Below the pieces are notes generated by a model. The model did no database searches. It was not told where the DNA came from and worked only from the letters and a program-made list of their open reading frames with translations. The position numbers were made by a program, and so were the translations under genes. A stretch of DNA of 64,000 nucleotides, from contig JAFGFT010000004.1 of assembly GCA_016930935.1 (NCBI GenBank), positions 47,844-111,843 of the forward strand, read 5' to 3'. This document shows positions 19,160 through 30,003 of this stretch, piece by piece (position 1 is the stretch's first letter; each line of letters opens with the position of its first letter). The stretch is from Dehalococcoidia bacterium (GTDB taxonomy: Bacteria; Chloroflexota; Dehalococcoidia; GIF9; AB-539-J10).

Positions 19160-20503
19160 CTACAGTATCGGGAGGTACCGGTTGATTTCGTATTCGGTTA
19201 CCTGGGTGCTGTATTCCCTCCACTCGATCTTCTTGTTCGCGATGAATGCTTTGAACACGTGGTCACCAAGACACTTGTGCAGGAATTCACTGCCCTCTGC
19301 CAGCCGGGTCGCATCCTGCAGGGTCTCAGGGAGAGTGGCGATGCCGCGCGCTTTCCTTTCATCCTCGCTCATCAGATAGACATTCTCTTCAACAGGGGCC
19401 GGACACTCGTATTCATTCTCAATGCCTTCAAGGCCGGCAGCCAGCATGACTGCGAAGGCGAGATATGGATTGCAGGCAGGGTCGGGTGAGCGGAGTTCAA
19501 CGCGCGTTGCGTTCTCCTGTCCAGGTTTGTATCCCGGTACGCGAATCATGTCGGCCCTGTTCCTTCGTGCCCATGACAAGTAGACGGGTGCCTCGTAGCC
19601 TGGCACGAGTCGCTTGTATGAATTCACGAACTGATTGGTGACAGCGGTGAACTCGGGGGCATGCCTCAGGAGTCCTGCAATGTAGTGTCGTGCAGTCTTG
19701 GAGAGGCTGAACTGTCCTTGGGGGTCAAACATCGCGTTGTGGCCGTTCTTGAAAAGGGACTGATGCACATGCATTCCACTGCCGTTGATGCCGAACACGG
19801 GCTTCGGCATGAACGTGGCGTGCACGCCGTTCGCCATCGCGATTTCCTTGACGATCAGTCTGTAGGTCATCACGTTGTCTGCCATCGTCAGCGCGTCGGT
19901 GTAGCGCATGTCTATCTCATGCTGACTGCCTGCGACCTCATGATGTGAGTACTCGACGCCGATACCCATGGCCTCGAGGGTCAGTACAGTCTCCCGCCTG
20001 AGGTCGGTGGCGGCATCCAGCGGAGTCATGTCGAAGTAGCCACCGTGGTCCAGTCCCTCTGTACTCTTGCTGTCTTTGAAATAGAAGTACTCAAGCTCTG
20101 GTCCAACGTAGTAGGTGTAGCCAAGGTCGGAGGCACGCTTCAGATTGCGTATGAGTACCTGGCGTGGGTCTCCGTCAAACGGGTCTCCTTCAGGTGTGAC
20201 GATGTTGCAGAACATCCTCGCGACGGCGTGATGCTCTCTGGGGCGCCATGGCAGAAGTTGGAATGTTTCGGGAACAGGCATTGCCATCATGTCGCTCTCA
20301 TCTATCCGGCAGAAGCCCTCAATTGAGGACCCGTCGAACCCCATTCCCTGCTCGAGTGCGGTCTCCAATTCCTCTACTGTAATCGCGAAACTCTTCAGAA
20401 AACCGAGAATATCCGTGAACCAGAGTCGAATGAATTTGACATCATGTTCTTTGGCTGTCTTGAGCACGTATGCTTTTGCTTCGTCCTGAGTTCTGTTGGC
20501 CAT
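19160..20503 (-). CDS. glnA: Glutamine synthetase, type I (GSI-alpha-like)
   Basis: GMGFDGSSIEGFCRIDESDMMAMP, GSGMHVHQSLFKNG, RVPGYKPGQENATRVELRSPDPACNPYLAFAVMLAAGLEGI; no NLYDLPP adenylylation motif. Confidence 0.95.
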   Translation of the reverse strand: MANRTQDEAKAYVLKTAKEHDVKFIRLWFTDILGFLKSFAITVEELETALEQGMGFDGSSIEGFCRIDESDMMAMPVPETFQLLPWRPREHHAVARMFCNIVTPEGDPFDGDPRQVLIRNLKRASDLGYTYYVGPELEYFYFKDSKSTEGLDHGGYFDMTPLDAATDLRRETVLTLEAMGIGVEYSHHEVAGSQHEIDMRYTDALTMADNVMTYRLIVKEIAMANGVHATFMPKPVFGINGSGMHVHQSLFKNGHNAMFDPQGQFSLSKTARHYIAGLLRHAPEFTAVTNQFVNSYKRLVPGYEAPVYLSWARRNRADMIRVPGYKPGQENATRVELRSPDPACNPYLAFAVMLAAGLEGIENEYECPAPVEENVYLMSEDERKARGIATLPETLQDATRLAEGSEFLHKCLGDHVFKAFIANKKIEWREYSTQVTEYEINRYLPIL

Positions 20504-20576
20504 TCTTCCTCCTTAGTACCTTGCCCCACTTGCAGGGGCGGCAATTACACCGATATGTGAATTGTGAGGCCCAATT

Positions 20577-20626
20577 GTTTCGGGAATATTTCTAAGGGGT
20601 TCGAAATACCGAAATTCCGTCGAATT
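20577..20626 (-). promoter_or_regulatory. Candidate regulatory region upstream of glnA: degenerate GlnR-like boxes plus palindrome AATTC-cgtc-GAATT
   Basis: Minus strand CGAAC-n6-GAAAT-n6-GAAAC (20603-20577) at 11-bp phase; palindrome at 20613-20626; about 75-125 nt upstream of glnA ATG. Confidence 0.35.
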
Positions 20627-20648: not shown

Positions 20649-22094
20649 TTATGCGAGTTCCTGCTCCAATAGCTCGCGTGTGACTGCTGGATTGGCGCGG
20701 CCCCTTGTGGCGCGCATCACCTGACCTGTCAGGAACTTCGTAGCCTGTTCCTTGCCGGCTTTGAAATCAGCCACTGCCTTGGGGTTATCGGCGATGACCT
20801 GTTGTACGGCTGTACGCAACTCATCCGAGCCGCTGATCTGGCCGAGGTTCTTCTCTTCCATGATTGCTGCAGGGCGCTTGCCTGACTTGTACATCTCCTC
20901 CAGGACAGACTTCGCTCCCGGGCCGCTCAACTCGTTGTTGTCGATAAGCTCAAGTAGCTCAACCATCCCGTGGGCCTGGAGCGGACAGTCGCATATCTCG
21001 ATACTGTCCGCATTGAGAAGACGGCTTACGTCGCCGAGAAGCCAGTTTGACACCGCGTGCCCGCGACTCGGGCCGGCTATGGCAACGCATTCGTCGAAGA
21101 ACTCCGCCATCGGACGGGATGCTACGAGGGTGACTGCGTCCTGTGCAGGAACGCTGAACTGGTCGACGAACCTTGCCTTGCGCGCCTCCGGAAGTTCCGG
21201 CAGGCCATTGCGAATCTGTTCCATCCACTCGCCCGTGAGCACGAGAGGAGGAAGGTCAGGCTCGGGGAAATACCGGTAGTCTTCCGCGTATTCCTTGCTA
21301 CGCTGAGATACCGTCACCCCCTCGGCCTCGATCCATCCCATGGTCTCCTGCTTCAGCTTTCCTCCGCTGTCGAGGACAGCAGCCTGCCGCTGCTGCTCGT
21401 ACTTGAGGGCGCGATAGACGCCCCTGAAGCTGTTCATGTTCTTGACTTCCACTTTGGCGCCGAGTTCAGTGGTTCCCCATGGGCGCAGGCTGATATTGGC
21501 GTCACATCTGAAGCTGCCGTCTTCCATGTTCCCTGTAGACACACCGAGGTATCGCAGAAGCGAGCGGAGCGTCATCAGGTACTCCCTGGCCTCCTCAGGA
21601 GAGCGCATGTCAGGCTCACTCACGGTCTCCATCAGAGGAATACCGGAGCGATTCACGTCAACCAGGCTGTAGCCATCGTGATGAAACGACTTCGCCACAT
21701 CTTCTTCCAGGTGAACGCGCGTGATTCCGATTCTTCTGTTCTCACCACCGACCTGGATGTCGAGCCATCCGGTGTGGCCGATTGGCGCATCGTACTGAGA
21801 GATCTGGTATCCCTTCATGAGGTCGGGATAGAAGTAGTTCTTCCTGTCAAACCTGGTGTTGCGGGAAAGTTCACAGTGAAGTGCAAGCGCGGTAGTCATG
21901 ACGTACTCAATCGCCTGCTTGTTCGCAGACGGCATGGCCCCCGGCATTCCCAGACAGATGGGGCAGACATGGGTGTTCGGGGGGCTGTCCAGATAGTCTG
22001 TGGAGCAGCCGCAGAACATCTTGCTGTTGGTCAGCAGTTGGGCGTGTACTTCAAGCCCAATCACCGTTTCATATCTGCCTTGTTCGGTCACCAA
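20649..22094 (-). CDS. gatB: Aspartyl/glutamyl-tRNA amidotransferase subunit B
   Basis: YETVIGLEVHAQLLTNSKMFCGCSTDY, CPICLGMPGAMP, FDRKNYFYPDLMKGYQISQYD. Confidence 0.95.
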   Translation of the reverse strand: MVTEQGRYETVIGLEVHAQLLTNSKMFCGCSTDYLDSPPNTHVCPICLGMPGAMPSANKQAIEYVMTTALALHCELSRNTRFDRKNYFYPDLMKGYQISQYDAPIGHTGWLDIQVGGENRRIGITRVHLEEDVAKSFHHDGYSLVDVNRSGIPLMETVSEPDMRSPEEAREYLMTLRSLLRYLGVSTGNMEDGSFRCDANISLRPWGTTELGAKVEVKNMNSFRGVYRALKYEQQRQAAVLDSGGKLKQETMGWIEAEGVTVSQRSKEYAEDYRYFPEPDLPPLVLTGEWMEQIRNGLPELPEARKARFVDQFSVPAQDAVTLVASRPMAEFFDECVAIAGPSRGHAVSNWLLGDVSRLLNADSIEICDCPLQAHGMVELLELIDNNELSGPGAKSVLEEMYKSGKRPAAIMEEKNLGQISGSDELRTAVQQVIADNPKAVADFKAGKEQATKFLTGQVMRATRGRANPAVTRELLEQELA

Positions 22095-22115: not shown

Positions 22116-22454
22116 CTACACGGCATCCATTCCTGATTCTCCCGTCCTGATACGAAGCGCATCCTCGACGGGAATGACGAATATCTTACCATCGCCGATG
22201 TCCCCTGTGCGCGCGCTTGCTGCGAGTGCACGCAGCACCGTCATGGCGTCCTCATCGAGCACCACGACCTCTACCTTGACCTTCGGGATGAGGTCAACCT
22301 CAAATTCCCCCGAGCGTTGTTGCAGTTTGAGGCCCTTCTGCCTGCCGCGGCCTTCAACGTGACTGACCGTCATGCCGAAGTAGCCCTTCTCCTCGAGCGC
22401 ACGCTTAATGGCGTCGAAACTCTCTTCCCTGACAATGGCTTCTATCTTCTTCAT
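22116..22454 (-). CDS. PII nitrogen regulatory protein
   Basis: KKIEAIVREESFDAIKRALEEKGYFGMTVSHVEGRGRQKG...VDLIPKVKVEVVV...TGDIGDGKIFVIPVEDALRIRTGE; start overlaps amtB stop (TAATG). Confidence 0.93.
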   Translation of the reverse strand: MKKIEAIVREESFDAIKRALEEKGYFGMTVSHVEGRGRQKGLKLQQRSGEFEVDLIPKVKVEVVVLDEDAMTVLRALAASARTGDIGDGKIFVIPVEDALRIRTGESGMDAV

Positions 22455-23680
22455 TATACGCTACCTCCATACGCTCTCTCTGCGTGCTGAGCAAGGTCGA
22501 GTCCCAGTGTCTCTTCACGCGGCTGGACACGAAGTCCGATGGTGGCGGAGAGAAGACGTCCGATGAGGTACGTCATCCCGAATGCAAAGACGGCCACTAC
22601 CACGATGCCCACTGCTTGCAGTCCGACCTGTGACGCATTGCCGAAAATGAGACCCGTAGCGCCTCCTACAGACGGGTCGGCGAAGATGCCGGTGGCAAAG
22701 GCGCCCCAGACGCCACCCATTCCGTGGACGGCCCAGACATCGAGGGACTCATCTATCTTCATCCTGACGCGAAGGCGGATGCAGAAGTAGCACACGACCG
22801 ACACAACCATGCCTATCGGTATCGCGGCGACGGGTGATACGAAACCTGCTGCGGGTGTGATGGCGACCAGACCTGCTACGGCCCCCGTTGCAACGCCAAG
22901 AGCACTCGGTTTGCGGTCCCACCACGAGAGCAACATCCACGTGACCGCGGCGGCGGCGGCACTGGTGTTGGTGGCTACAAACGCTGACGATGCTAAACCA
23001 CCGGAGGTCAAGGCACTGCCCGCATTGAAGCCGAACCATCCGAACCAGAGGAGCCCGGCACCCAGGACGACCATGGGGATATTGTGCGCTTCCATGGGGC
23101 GGCCTTCGGCGTAACCCTTTCGAGGTCCAAGTATCATTGCGAGTGCGAGAGCTGAGAAGCCGGCACAGATGTGCACGACGGTACCGCCTGCGAAATCGAG
23201 CGCGCCGAGGTTGAGCAGCCACCCTCCTGCACCCCACACCCAGTGGGCCACGGGGCAGTATACGACGGTCAGCCAGATTACGGAGAAAACCATCAACGCG
23301 GCAAAGCGCATGCGCTCCACCACTGCACCGGTTATGAGGGCCAGCGTGATGATGGCGAACATACCTTGAAAGGCGAAGAATGCCAGATGAGGCACGGTGC
23401 TGGCGTACGTGTCAGATGGAGTCTGGCCAACTCCCCTGAGCAGTGCAAAATCGAGACCTCCGAATATGCCACCTATGTCGCTGCCGAAACTCAGGCTATA
23501 GCCATACAGTAGCCACAGTACGGAAGCCACGCCGAGCATGGCGAAGCTCATCATGGTGGTGGAAATGACGTTCTTGCGTCGAATCATTCCGGCGTAGAAC
23601 AACGCCAATCCTGGCGTCATCAGCATAACGAGGGCGGACGAGACAAGCAGCCATGCTGTGTCTGCAGCATTTATACTCAT
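22454..23680 (-). CDS. amtB: Ammonium transporter (Amt family)
   Basis: DTAWLLVSSALVMLMTPGLALFYAGMIRRKNV, FAGGTVVHICAGFSALALAMILGPRKGY; ATG 23680 with upstream aaggagg. Confidence 0.93.
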   Translation of the reverse strand: MSINAADTAWLLVSSALVMLMTPGLALFYAGMIRRKNVISTTMMSFAMLGVASVLWLLYGYSLSFGSDIGGIFGGLDFALLRGVGQTPSDTYASTVPHLAFFAFQGMFAIITLALITGAVVERMRFAALMVFSVIWLTVVYCPVAHWVWGAGGWLLNLGALDFAGGTVVHICAGFSALALAMILGPRKGYAEGRPMEAHNIPMVVLGAGLLWFGWFGFNAGSALTSGGLASSAFVATNTSAAAAAVTWMLLSWWDRKPSALGVATGAVAGLVAITPAAGFVSPVAAIPIGMVVSVVCYFCIRLRVRMKIDESLDVWAVHGMGGVWGAFATGIFADPSVGGATGLIFGNASQVGLQAVGIVVVAVFAFGMTYLIGRLLSATIGLRVQPREETLGLDLAQHAERAYGGSV

Positions 23681-23729
23681 GGGGGTGTGCACCTCCTTGG
23701 CAGTACTGGAGGAAGCATAGATGGCGAAT

Positions 23730-23767
23730 GTTACGGAGGTGTTTCGGGATGGTTACAATGATGTTAC
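23730..23767 (-). promoter_or_regulatory. Candidate GlnR-type operator: four 5-mers at exact 11-bp phase upstream of amtB
   Basis: Minus strand: GTAAC atcatt GTAAC catccc GAAAC acctcc GTAAC; lies ~50-87 nt upstream of amtB ATG. Confidence 0.7.
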
Positions 23768-23781
23768 GGGAAGGGCGTCAT

Positions 23782-24456
23782 TCAGACATCCTTGTGGAAG
23801 CGGTATCCAACGTTCCGCACTGTGTCGATGAACGTGTGGCTCGTGTTCTCAATCTTGCTGCGGAGTCTCCGTACGTGTACGTCCACCGTGCGGTCTCCAC
23901 CGTAGTAATCATATCCCCATACACGGTCGAGCAGGACGTCACGTGAGTGCACTCTGCCCGGGTTCGCCGCGAGAAACTTGAGCAGTTCGTATTCCTTGAA
24001 CGTGAGTTCGATGAGATGCCCGCCAAGTGAGACTTCGCAATTTGCGGTGTCGATACTGAGGTCACCCCGCTTGATGATATCGCCGCTGTCAGGGTTAAGG
24101 TCAGCAAGGCGGCGCACGCGGGCGCGTATTTCGGCGCCGGGTGCGCCTATAAGCGCAAAATCATCTACTCCCGTACGTGGCAGGACGAGGTTGAGAAGGC
24201 CGGAGTCTACGATTGCGAGAAGCGGAGAGTGTGCAATTGCCTTGATCCGTGATGGAAGCGTGCGTAATTCCTCAGTGTTCTGAAGAACGACGACAACTGC
24301 AGAAGGGGACGGTCGGAGTGCGGCATCGAAATCCTCTGCTGCGACGTCAACCTCAGACACTTCAGCTTCGAGCATGCGCAACTCTTCGACGAGAGAAGCG
24401 TTCTCGTCTGAGGGAGACGCTATAACGACGATACGTGTGGGTGAGGTGGTGTTCAC
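23782..24456 (-). CDS. GlnR-like OmpR-family orphan response regulator
   Basis: C-terminal winged helix ELTFKEYELLKFLAANPGRVHSRDVLLDRVWGYDYYGGDRTVDVHVRRLRSKIE...FIDTVRNVGYRF; GDLSIDTANCEVSLGG linker; receiver-like domain lacking a conserved phospho-Asp (VVVVLQNTEE); GTG start. Confidence 0.85.
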   Translation of the reverse strand: MNTTSPTRIVVIASPSDENASLVEELRMLEAEVSEVDVAAEDFDAALRPSPSAVVVVLQNTEELRTLPSRIKAIAHSPLLAIVDSGLLNLVLPRTGVDDFALIGAPGAEIRARVRRLADLNPDSGDIIKRGDLSIDTANCEVSLGGHLIELTFKEYELLKFLAANPGRVHSRDVLLDRVWGYDYYGGDRTVDVHVRRLRSKIENTSHTFIDTVRNVGYRFHKDV

Positions 24457-24467
24457 CTGCCGTTGCA

Positions 24468-25229
24468 CTAGTAGGCGTACAACCTTCCGTACGGCCGCAG
24501 GTAGAGCGGGAACAGCTTCACGAAGTCTCCTGCAAGTATGTCCTCGCAGGACCCGTCGAAGTACGAACAATACCGTTTCACGGCATTCTCAAGGACGGCG
24601 TTATCGTGCTCTGTAAGTGCGGCGATGCCTACTTCCTTTCCCACCTGGTGGTTCTCTATGCCGCCGCGGAGATAGATGGCACCGCCATGCATACCGGTGC
24701 CGACGAAACGGGCACGCGTGCGGCCAGCAGATGGTCCTGTCAATCCTAGCACGACGAGCACACCGCCTGCCATGTACTCTCCGAGAAAGTCCTGGGCGCC
24801 GCCACCAATCACGACCAGCGGGCCCTTGCCTTCGTACTCTTTCATGTGAATTCCGGCACGATAACCCGCACTGTCTCTCACCATGATAGTGCCCCCTCGG
24901 GCAGCGAGGCCGAGGGCGTCTCCCACATGACCGTGGACGATAATCTCTCCGCTATTCATGGTATTGCCGATGCCGTCCTGACCATTGCCACGCACCGTTA
25001 TTCTGGGGCCATCCATGAATGCACCAAGGTCATTGCCGGGCGTGCCAGTGAGTTCTACCTTCATGGTGCTGAGAAGGCTGGTGCCGATGTAGCGCTGGCC
25101 GTTGAGGTTGCTCACGTGTACGTCCATGACGCCGTTGGCAGCCGCTTCTTTCAGCTTCTGATTCAGGTCTCTATAGGACAGGCCGAGGGCATCGATCTCC
25201 ATTGTCTTCATCTCCAATACACGTTCCAC
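24468..25229 (-). CDS. Glutamate synthase GXGXG-domain subunit (GltB3/GlxC-like)
   Basis: GTPGNDLGAFMDGPRITVRGNGQDGIGNTMNSGEIIVHGHVGDALGLAARGGTIMVRDSAGYRAGIHMKEY beta-helix repeats. Confidence 0.88.
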   Translation of the reverse strand: MERVLEMKTMEIDALGLSYRDLNQKLKEAAANGVMDVHVSNLNGQRYIGTSLLSTMKVELTGTPGNDLGAFMDGPRITVRGNGQDGIGNTMNSGEIIVHGHVGDALGLAARGGTIMVRDSAGYRAGIHMKEYEGKGPLVVIGGGAQDFLGEYMAGGVLVVLGLTGPSAGRTRARFVGTGMHGGAIYLRGGIENHQVGKEVGIAALTEHDNAVLENAVKRYCSYFDGSCEDILAGDFVKLFPLYLRPYGRLYAY

Positions 25230-25237
25230 ATCGGTTT

Positions 25238-26740
25238 CTAGGTGCCTGCCATCTTGACGCCGAGCGCTTCCATCTCTCCCTCCGTCAGGCCGATGGCGCG
25301 AAGGTGGAGTCGATTGCCACGCAGGCTTTCTATGGCGTTCACGCCCATGCCGCCCAGCATGTCCTTGATCTCAAGGCTCCAACCTCGTACGAGGTTGACG
25401 ACCCGTTGTGCTCCAATCTCAGGATTGATTCGCTTCGTGAGTGCAGGGTTGCTTGTGCAGATGCCCCATGTGCACTTGCCCGTGTGGCATTGTTGGCATA
25501 CGTGGCAACCCAGCGCGATGAGGGCCGCGGTGCCGATGTTCACGGCATCTGCGCCAAGCGCGATTGCCTTGGCAACATCTCCGCTCGACCGGAAGCCACC
25601 TGAAGCGACCACCGAAGCCAGGTTTCTGATGCCTTCCTGCCTGAGTCTCGTATCGACTGCGGCCAGGGCAAGTTCAATCGGTATTCCAACGTTATCGCGG
25701 ATAGCCTTGGGTGCAGCTCCCGTTGCTCCCTTGAGTCCATCGATGACAATCATGTCGGCACCTGCTCGAACCATGCCACTGGCGATTGCCGCGACGTTGT
25801 GGACCGCGGCTATTTTGACTGAGACAGGCTTCTCGTAGTTCGTTGCTTCTTTGATGGCGTAGATGAGTTGTCGCAAATCCTCGATGGAGTAGATGTCATG
25901 GTGGGGCGCAGGCGAAAGTGCATCGGTGCCCTGGGGTATCATGCGTGTGCGGGATACCTCGGCGCTTACTTTCTCTCCGGGCAGATGACCGCCGATGCCG
26001 GGCTTGGCCCCCTGGCCAATCTTGATCTCTACTATGCGCGCATTGCGCAGGTACTCAGAATGGACACCGAAGCGTCCTGAGGCTACCTGGACGATGGTGT
26101 TGTCAGCATACTGCCTCAGCGACGGATGTAGACCACCCTCCCCTGTATTCCAGAGAGTTCCGAGTTCCGTAGCGGCTCGGGCGAGAGACTGCTGGACATT
26201 GAGACTCACGGCGCCGTAGGACATGGCAGCGAACATGATTGGCGTCTCAATCTTGACCTGTGGTGGAAGCGGCTCCTTCAGTTTTCCGGAGGTATCGAAT
26301 TCGACTCTGTCCGGTTTCCGCCCGATGTAGGTGCCGAGTTCCATTGGCTCGCGCAAAGGGTCGATTGAGGGGTTTGTCACCTGGCTGGCGTTCAGGAGCA
26401 GGTGGTCCCAGTAGTTCTTGTGACCCTTGTCGTTGCCCATGCCGGTGAGAAGCATGCCGCCGGTCTCGGCCTGCTTGAATATGTCCTCGATTGTCTCGGA
26501 CGTCCAGTTGGCGTTCGACCTGTACTCGAGGGGATTCCGTCGAATGGTAAGCGCATTGGTCGGACAGAATGCAACGCAACGGTGGCATCCGACGCAGTTC
26601 TCTTCACGCGCCTTGACGACGCCCTCGTCTTCATCGAAATAGTGCACGTCGAATGTACATTGATTCACGCAGACCTTGCATTGGATACAGCGATTCGGGT
26701 CACGGTCGACCACGAACGCAGAAGGCAGAAAACTCTTCAT
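25238..26740 (-). CDS. Glutamate synthase FMN-binding domain protein with N-terminal 2x[4Fe-4S] ferredoxin (archaeal-type GltB2)
   Basis: CIQCKVCVNQCTFDVHYFDEDEGVVKAREENCVGCHRCVAFCPTNALTIRRNP; GEGGLHPSLRQYADN, KIGQGAKPGIGGHLPGEKVSAEVSRTR, VIDGLKGATGAAPKAIRDNVGIP. Confidence 0.9.
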   Translation of the reverse strand: MKSFLPSAFVVDRDPNRCIQCKVCVNQCTFDVHYFDEDEGVVKAREENCVGCHRCVAFCPTNALTIRRNPLEYRSNANWTSETIEDIFKQAETGGMLLTGMGNDKGHKNYWDHLLLNASQVTNPSIDPLREPMELGTYIGRKPDRVEFDTSGKLKEPLPPQVKIETPIMFAAMSYGAVSLNVQQSLARAATELGTLWNTGEGGLHPSLRQYADNTIVQVASGRFGVHSEYLRNARIVEIKIGQGAKPGIGGHLPGEKVSAEVSRTRMIPQGTDALSPAPHHDIYSIEDLRQLIYAIKEATNYEKPVSVKIAAVHNVAAIASGMVRAGADMIVIDGLKGATGAAPKAIRDNVGIPIELALAAVDTRLRQEGIRNLASVVASGGFRSSGDVAKAIALGADAVNIGTAALIALGCHVCQQCHTGKCTWGICTSNPALTKRINPEIGAQRVVNLVRGWSLEIKDMLGGMGVNAIESLRGNRLHLRAIGLTEGEMEALGVKMAGT

Positions 26741-26750
26741 TTGTCCCTTC

Positions 26751-27518
26751 CTAAAGCCTGATGGGAATATTCCGATCGCGGAGGTACCTCTTGGTTTCCG
26801 CGATAGTAATCTCATTGTAGTGGAAGATGCTGGCGGCTAGAACGGCATCGGCCTTGCCCTCATGCAGAGCGCGATAGAGGTGCTCAGCTGACCCTGCTCC
26901 ACCGCTGGCGATAACCGGTATGGAAACGCTGGTGGAAACGGCGCGCGTCAATTCGATATCGTAGCCATCCTTGTGTCCATCGGCATCCATGCTGGTCAGC
27001 AGTATCTCTCCTGCGCCCAGTTCTGCGGCACGGAGCGCCCATTCGACGGCGTCCATCTCGACTTCGACGCTGCCTCCATAGGTGTGAACCTGCCATCTCA
27101 GGGGGTCGGAACGCTCCACGCGCTTGGCGTCGATGGCCACCACCACGCACTGTGTGCCGAACCTGTCGGCCGCCCTGCTCACAAGCTGCGGGTCGCGGAC
27201 AGCAGCCGTGTTGAGTGATACTTTGTCTGCGCCACTGAGGAGCATGCGGCGCATGTCGTCGACGGTGCGTAGACCGCCACCCACAGTCAGTGGCATGAAC
27301 ACGACCTCGGCGATGCGTTCGACCACTTCGGCCATGGTGTCCCTGTGTTCCTTGCTGGCCGTGATGTCGAGGAAGACCAGTTCATCGGCACCCTCTTCAT
27401 AGTAGCGCCGTGCAAGTTCGACGGGGTCGCCTGAATCGCGTAGCGACAGGAAACTGGTGCCTTTGACGACGCGGCCGTCCTTCACATCAAGACAGGGGAT
27501 TATGCGCCTAGTGAGCAC
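26751..27518 (-). CDS. hisF: Imidazole glycerol phosphate synthase cyclase subunit
   Basis: [55 protein letters not shown]. Confidence 0.95.
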
Positions 27519-28656
27519 CCGCGAACACCTCTCTTGGATTCAAGGTGTCCCCCTGAGTAGGCATGTGGCCCAGCCTTGCGATGACAGGCTGTCCTCCAAC
27601 GGGTATCCAGGCATCTTCAAGTTCAGGGCAGACGAGGCGCATGGCCGATTCTTCTGAAGAAAGGAATACCTTGCTCCCCTGTGTGCCAACCACCAATGGT
27701 CGAAGCCTGATTCTGTCGGTCAGACCTACCATCTCTCCCGTCCTGCCGACGATGATGGTGAACGGACCGTTCATGAGAAGCCCGCTATAGGTCATTCTCA
27801 AGGCGCTCATCATTTCGGCCTCGTCCGCGTCGAGATACTGAAGTTCATTCCAGAAAGGCGCTGCGAGGACTCGCGTCGCCACCTCCATTGGCAAGTGGTG
27901 ACGCCGCACGAGAAGGTCGACCGCGTAGGCAACCACCTCCGTGTCGGTCTGCAGAGAGCAGACGTAGCCGTACTGCTCAAGGAAACGCTTGTTGATGCCG
28001 TAGGAAGAGATTTCTCCGTTGTGCACGACGGTCCAGTCGAGGAGGCTGAACGGGTGAGCGCCGCCCCACCATCCAGGGGTGTTGGTCGGAAAACGGCCAT
28101 GAGCGGTCCAGAGGTAACCGCTGTATTGCTCCAGACGGAAGAATTTCGCTATGTGGTATGGGTGGCCGACGCCCTTGAATACGCCCATGTTCTTGCCGCC
28201 CGAAAAGACGAAGCTGTCGCGTATGGTGTTGTTGACGTACATGGTCTTGTCTGCCACGTACTGCAAAGGGTCTGTGCCAGCCATCTTCTCATTCTTGGGC
28301 GACATGAAGTATCGTTGCATCAGAGGCGGATTGGGGAGGGCGGTGGGGTCCACATCCATGAGTTCGGATTTCTCGATGTTGAACCACTCCGCGAGGTATT
28401 CCTCAGTGTCGCGTTGGCCTTCCTTGCTTGCATACATGATGTGGAAGGCGTAGCTGTCCTCGTGCTCGGGATACAGTCCGTATGCGGCGAATCCTCCGCC
28501 GAGTCCATTGTCACGGTCGCGCATCAGGTCGATAGCACGAATCGCGACGTCTGCGGGGATTGCCTTCCCCGACGTGTCCATGACCCCGAAAATCGAGCAG
28601 CCGTCGAAGACCTTATCATCACCATAGCTGTTGTTGACCAGCGTTACGTTCTTCAT
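27508..28656 (-). CDS. Class II glutamine amidotransferase, glutamate synthase GATase subunit (GltB1/GlxB-like)
   Basis: [10 protein letters not shown] near N-terminus, [62 protein letters not shown]. Confidence 0.88.
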
Positions 28657-28713
28657 ATCGATACCCCTTGAGTGTTGCAGCCTCTTCCGCAGAAGACGGC
28701 GGGTAACACACCA

Positions 28714-30003
28714 CTACATGATAGCGCCATTTGCTCCGTTGGTCGTCAGACTGTCACGCCACAGTTCCTCAGGGAGAGAAAGAAGTCCGAATTCCTCACT
28801 CACAAGGCTGTTCTTCCAATCTCCGACTGGTGTTCTTCGCTTCATGAGCGTGTGAATCAATCCACATCTGGTTGTGTCGCCGGCGAATACCATTCCTGTC
28901 ACTATGTTGTCGTGGAGCATGACCTTGCGGTAGCAACCCTTTGAGTGAGAGACGAGAGTCTCTGCGTCCGGCCTATCGTCATCGACGATTCCTGCGGAGC
29001 CAACCGTGACGCCGAAGTAGGGCAGTGCGTTCAGCGTGGTGCTGCCGTCATACTCATGAAAGAGACCTGTCATGTTCGTTCCGGCAATCGCGCCTCCGGC
29101 AACGGCGTTCGGCCATACGGCGATAACCTGCTGACTGCGGCGCACAAAATCCGTCGTCTGGCACGCGTCTCCACACGCGAATACGTCATCCGCTGATGTC
29201 TGCATGCATCTATCTACGATGATGCCACGGTCTACCTGGAGAACACCGGCAGCAATCTCGGTTCGTGGCCTGACTCCGACGGCGACTATGACCATCTCGC
29301 ACGCGAGGCGAGAACCGTCGTCAAGTGTGACGCTCGTGACGCTATTACCTGCCATGGGGTCAACATTGATGGATTCGACGCGTCGGCTTGTCATGACCCT
29401 GGCACCCGAAGTGGTTGCTGCATCTTCAACCATGCGTGACGCTGTCTGGTCGAGCATGAGACTGAGAATCCTGTTCTGCATCTCGACCACGGTCACCTCA
29501 ACGCCTCGCTTACACAGGGCGTCAGCGGCGCTCAATCCAATGAATCCTCCACCCACTATGACGGCCCTTTCAACGGCGGGAAGGTGGGCCGCGATCTGGC
29601 GTGCGTCGTCGAATGTCGTGAAGGTGAATACGCCCGATGCGTCGTGGCCGGGAATCGGAGGCACAACGGGCGAACTCCCGGTAGCAAGAAGCAGCCGTTC
29701 GAACGCGATGGTGCGTCCATCTGCTGTCTTGATGATGTGCTCAACGGGGTTGAAACCGACGGCCCGAGTCCCGAGACTCAGTTCGATTGCGTTCTCCTGA
29801 TAGAACTCGGGGGCTACGAGGCGCATTGTGTCGACACCCTTCGCTTCGGACAGATGCTTTGCGATAAGCGGTCGTGAATAGGCAGGGTAGTGCTCTTCAG
29901 AGAGCATCAGGAGAGAGCCAGCGTTGTCAGACTTGCGCAAGGCCCGCGCAGCCGACATGGCACCGGCCGAGTTGCCGACAATGACATACCTATATTGTTC
30001 CAT
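28714..30003 (-). CDS. FAD-dependent pyridine nucleotide-disulphide oxidoreductase
   Basis: YVIVGNSAGAMSAARALR, LLLATGSSPVVPPIPG, AVIVGGGFIGLSAADALCKRGVEVTVVE, VFACGDACQ. Confidence 0.85.
   Translation of the reverse strand: MEQYRYVIVGNSAGAMSAARALRKSDNAGSLLMLSEEHYPAYSRPLIAKHLSEAKGVDTMRLVAPEFYQENAIELSLGTRAVGFNPVEHIIKTADGRTIAFERLLLATGSSPVVPPIPGHDASGVFTFTTFDDARQIAAHLPAVERAVIVGGGFIGLSAADALCKRGVEVTVVEMQNRILSLMLDQTASRMVEDAATTSGARVMTSRRVESINVDPMAGNSVTSVTLDDGSRLACEMVIVAVGVRPRTEIAAGVLQVDRGIIVDRCMQTSADDVFACGDACQTTDFVRRSQQVIAVWPNAVAGGAIAGTNMTGLFHEYDGSTTLNALPYFGVTVGSAGIVDDDRPDAETLVSHSKGCYRKVMLHDNIVTGMVFAGDTTRCGLIHTLMKRRTPVGDWKNSLVSEEFGLLSLPEELWRDSLTTNGANGAIM

Follow-up and report, generated by a model that had tools for sequence, protein, structure and literature searches.

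The window, meaning the whole 64,000-nucleotide stretch analysed here, belongs to a 2.38-Mb draft genome (92% complete, 6% contaminated), which was scanned by patterns together with its relatives among the Dehalococcoidia. The window carries the following features, all on the minus strand.

19160..20503, minus strand: glnA, glutamine synthetase type I (TIGR00653, 537 bits; cut-off 429)
20561..20614, minus strand: partial second site upstream of glnA, CGAAC-n6-GAAAT-n6-GAAAC-n10-CACAAT, with three of four boxes
20649..22094, minus strand: gatB-like open reading frame, named by eye, 21 nt past glnK
22116..22454, minus strand: glnK/glnB, P-II signalling protein (Pfam P-II, 104.7 bits)
22454..23680, minus strand: amt, ammonium transporter (Pfam Ammonium_transp, 436 bits; TIGR00836, 478.8 bits, cut-off 343.3)
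23714..23719, minus strand: -10 element TATGCT
23730..23767, minus strand: predicted four-box GlnR-type operator array (sequence, matrix score, class-wide conservation)
23767-23763 GTAAC, 23756-23752 GTAAC, 23745-23741 GAAAC and 23734-23730 GTAAC, minus strand: the array boxes in reading direction
23782..24456, minus strand: glnR-type gene, OmpR-family regulator of 224 aa with an atypical receiver (Pfam, PDB matches, tree, predicted model)
24468..30003, minus strand: split glutamate synthase cluster directly upstream of glnR (open reading frames and profiles)
24468-25229, minus strand: GXGXG domain gene of that cluster
25238-26815, minus strand: FMN/FeS domain gene
26751-27518, minus strand: hisF-like gene inside the cluster
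27508-28656, minus strand: GATase gene
28714-30003, minus strand: NADH oxidoreductase gene

The array fills the gap between the stop of the regulator gene at 23782 and amt, and reads GTAAC atcatt GTAAC catccc GAAAC acctcc GTAAC from 23767 down to 23730, so that all four 5-mers stand in exact 11-bp phase. The likely start of amt is the ATG at 23680, favoured over the GTG at 23692 because the latter falls within a Shine-Dalgarno run, AAGGAGGTG. The gatB-like gene probably shares the amt-glnK operon, and the same neighbour is present in three relative loci (L032, L034 and L035). In these nearest relatives a full array occupies the gatB-glnA position at which the window has its partial site. The gene order of the glutamate synthase cluster is common to many relatives, many of which also have a hisF-like gene at the matching position; an apparent hisH end lies just upstream of the cluster, at about 30040 (by eye).

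Within the genome, the degenerate four-box pattern matches two places with 0 mismatches, one before each of its only two amt genes. The second exact array lies on another contig, about 54 nt ahead of another amt-glnK pair. Matches at two mismatches beyond these were rejected as noise (six, against three in the control). A histidine-kinase-like gene and a NarL-type regulator gene, both named by eye, diverge from the second amt (L120:1999-4516), and the second array is thus within an intergenic region common to both sides.

Across the class, the exact pattern occurs at 89 places in 63 of 148 Dehalococcoidia genomes, whereas a reversed control pattern occurs once. When 88 arrays were read in context, 66 had amt, glnK, glnA or another nitrogen-cluster gene no more than 700 nt downstream on the same strand. 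Arrays in relatives sit between glnR and amt, glnR and glnA, or gatB and glnA, and the order glnR-array-amt (or glnA) is recurrent. Others precede nifH (two), NasC-like nitrate reductase, UrtA and GlnII genes, and one, beside a P-II gene, precedes a ferredoxin-nitrite reductase-like gene; the NasC and nitrite reductase matches are under their models' cut-offs. Phylogenetic conservation of the phased boxes had been set in advance as a check on the site, and they are indeed conserved class-wide at the equivalent place. The pattern extended to include the -10 element was found in 11 of 24 class genomes and in none of 177 other genomes sampled from the phylum.

The array and a GlnR-type protein also tend to occur in the same genomes. 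At a cut-off of 1e-65, 57 of the 148 genomes have both, 45 the protein only, six the array only and 40 neither (Fisher p = 7e-7; 1e-4 at 1e-57 and 2e-9 at 1e-70, with genomes counted without correction for kinship). Depending on the cut-off, 31 to 53 genomes, about half of those bearing the protein, have no exact array, which suggests either that the pattern is too strict or that the site differs there.

The gene beside the array was originally described as encoding an OmpR-family protein very like GlnR in its C-terminal half, and the likeness holds but is not confined to that half. The N-terminal half passes the Pfam GlnR_1st model (PF21695), if narrowly, at 28.8 bits against a cut-off of 27 (many Actinomycetota GlnR proteins score about 150 bits), and Trans_reg_C matches at 96.3 bits. 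The best PDB matches are the solved GlnR structures 8hig and 8hih (130 and 114 bits), followed among full-length proteins by RegX3 (86). A predicted structure (pLDDT 91.2) has 8hih as its top Foldseek match, with low full-length TM-scores (0.45) and an unsure arrangement of the two domains (pTM 0.65). In a tree that also included seven OmpR-family paralogs from its own genome, the regulator joins the Actinomycetota GlnR clade with 100/100 support and the paralogs fall outside; branch order within the clade is weakly supported. The Actinomycetota sample was a set around Ilumatobacteraceae, a set around L072 having been dropped, as it includes a genome titled Armatimonadetes (L071) and may therefore represent some group other than Actinomycetota. 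A recent transfer of glnR from Actinomycetota is not favoured, the Dehalococcoidia not being nested inside the Actinomycetota clade. By profile, structure match and tree the regulator is GlnR-type, and the putative pairing of a GlnR site with its regulator outside Actinobacteria, which the original prediction rated a notable extension of GlnR control if found, can now be placed in the Dehalococcoidia.

The receiver is where the regulator departs from its namesakes. An acidic pair, one Asp and one Lys are conserved in typical receivers; in the window regulator the acidic pair, Asp, Thr/Ser and Lys are all replaced, and the phosphorylation pocket is not intact. The phosphoacceptor Asp position (receiver position 57) is Asp in 19 of 19 Actinomycetota GlnR proteins but Val here, and of 53 Dehalococcoidia GlnR proteins 16 have Asp there, 18 have Glu and the remainder carry something else. 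In Actinomycetota GlnR, Asp-50 together with Thr-9 and Arg-52 reportedly keeps the dimer stable (PMC10704036). The positions of that Thr and Arg are likewise not kept, and the window regulator thus lacks the receiver residues that are tied to dimer stability there. No kinase gene was found beside it among the neighbouring window genes, which are metabolic. Thus, judged by every test run, the protein resembles GlnR at the DNA, yet it is not a canonical Actinomycetota GlnR, and because its receiver lacks the Asp that those proteins keep, a divergent GlnR lineage is the best name for it.

What would such a regulator do at this site? The -10 element begins exactly 10 nt past the last box; the original prediction had it at 8 nt, whereas counting places TATGCT at 23714-23719. 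A -35 element sought at spacers of 15 to 19 nt in the window gave a best match of two of six letters. Among 83 arrays, 48 have TAnnnT starting 10 nt past the last box (any other offset accounts for at most nine), and -35 matches of at least four letters occur in three, all with a 16-nt spacer; spacers of 15, 17, 18 and 19 nt give none. A fixed -10 spacing with no recognisable -35 fits an activator-dependent, class-II-like promoter, and the proposal that the array stands where a class II activator would replace a weak -35 therefore agrees with the arrays of relatives as well; by its sequence, the layout would be that of a promoter needing an activator in place of its -35.

I therefore take the array to be the operator of a GlnR-type nitrogen-control promoter, whose regulator is probably the product of the neighbouring gene, activating under nitrogen shortage (probability about 0.88). 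Four protomers of this product would probably occupy the four 5-mers in head-to-tail order along one face of the DNA, covering the site of the missing -35 and recruiting RNA polymerase to TATGCT. Nitrogen shortage would then switch on amt-glnK-gatB, and perhaps glnA-nadE too. This regulator probably also drives the other amt-glnK operon of the genome and, through the partial site, glnA.

The rival that survives best grants the binding but has the regulator repress, or act both ways by condition, rather than serve as a simple activator. There is precedent, since GlnR of M. smegmatis acts as both activator and repressor (PMC3662644), yet a missing -35 and a fixed -10 spacing in dozens of promoters fit activation, and box 4 lies upstream of the -10 rather than over the start, so I consider this improbable. 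Somewhat less probable still is that the real or competing binder is another OmpR-family regulator of the genome, MtrA- or PhoB-like. Such proteins also use 11-bp direct repeats, the genome has ten further OmpR-type matches, led by an MtrA-like one at 259.7 bits, and in Streptomyces GlnR faces competition from MtrA and PhoP at nitrogen promoters (PMC10704036). However, no protein of the genome reaches the MtrA cut-off of 300 bits (the window regulator itself scores 99.5 bits against this NCBIfam equivalog), the GlnR clade excludes the seven paralogs placed in the tree, and the array travels with glnR and nitrogen genes.

That chance or a repeat produced the phased boxes can be dismissed almost entirely: the motifs are short and the array was spotted by one reader's eye within 64 kb, but its scores far exceed the Markov controls, the reversed pattern all but vanishes class-wide, and the control for the pattern with its -10 gave 0 matches across 201 phylum genomes. 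By a hand-made box score the array reaches 34.0, against a best of 28.9 in 40 Markov-1 sequences of 64 kb. A 54-column matrix built from 41 loci of relatives, with the window excluded, gives it 47.7, while Markov sequence totalling 4.8 Mb reaches at most 9.8, and the second-best place in the window is the partial glnA site (13.7 against the same null maximum). The original reading of GTAAC-n6-GTAAC-n6-GAAAC-n6-GTAAC in 11-bp phase is thus exact, and far above random sequence. The training arrays were chosen by the hand-made score, which favours known box letters, so there is some circularity in the measured box conservation, though not in the -10, the gene context or the reversed-pattern control.

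The operator is of a known kind in an unexpected lineage, with a divergent GlnR regulator. Actinomycetota GlnR (Streptomyces, Mycobacterium, Amycolatopsis, Saccharopolyspora; PDB 8hih, 8hig) shares with the window regulator its OmpR type, the GlnR_1st receiver and an identical recognition helix (RTVDVHVRRLR), along with 11-bp phased gTnAc/GaAAc boxes and amt, glnK, glnA, nitrate and urea gene targets. Its sites are gTnAc-n6-GaAAc repeats, and the solved activation complex places four GlnR molecules head to tail along a promoter of four sites (PMC10704036), the number of sites found here. The M. smegmatis site is given as AC or AT-n9-AC (PMC3662644), a form that GTAAT-n6-GAAAC, common in relatives, also yields. 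In contrast, the present system lies in another phylum (Chloroflexota), the receiver Asp is Val and varies among relatives, glnR has a split glutamate synthase cluster on one side and amt on the other, and arrays of Dehalococcoidia relatives also stand before nifH and often have GTAAT as box 3. Two other comparisons are less close. In PhoB/PhoP-type OmpR activators, pho boxes replace the -35 and 11-bp direct repeats end about 10 nt before the -10; this repeat geometry is alike, whereas the box letters, targets and regulator clade of the window are GlnR-type. GlnR/TnrA of Bacilli are MerR-family proteins unrelated to the OmpR-type regulator, with which they share only a name and a nitrogen role. 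Open-licence papers, judged by titles and abstracts, gave no earlier report of this system in Chloroflexota or Dehalococcoidia.

If the reading is right, Dehalococcoidia place the uptake and assimilation of ammonium under a nitrogen master regulator regarded as actinobacterial, which in some relatives would reach nitrogenase, nitrate and urea genes as well. It would give poorly cultured bacteria a promoter code open to testing, and GlnR proteins that naturally lack the receiver Asp could help reveal how GlnR senses nitrogen. A wider proposal, which I regard as tentative and rather unlikely as a whole, is that the GlnR regulon predates the split of Actinomycetota and Dehalococcoidia or was passed long ago, that it runs nitrogen control throughout a class whose members include organohalide respirers as well as nitrogen fixers, and that the receiver senses without a conserved Asp, the signal arriving by another route such as P-II or glutamine synthetase.

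Several arrays and GlnR-like genes elsewhere deserve mention. The two nifH genes with arrays upstream (L196:1109-2048 and L202:2185-3152) score 449 and 447 bits against a cut-off of 394, and in some Dehalococcoidia nitrogen fixation may be under this regulator's control. In SAR202-type and related Chloroflexi (L074, L075) a GlnR-like gene adjoins glnA, where an array was sought and not found. Five Omnitrophota loci (L037, L041, L048, L053 and L060) have GlnR-like genes with weaker phased boxes of TTAAT/TTAAC type nearby. Finally, four-box arrays stand directly before an acetyltransferase gene at L177:2792-3310 and L180:2686-3204. Its best models are arsinothricin/phosphinothricin N-acetyltransferases (L177 at 142.6 bits, under the cut-off of 170), and it is possible that the enzyme guards glutamine synthetase under nitrogen control.
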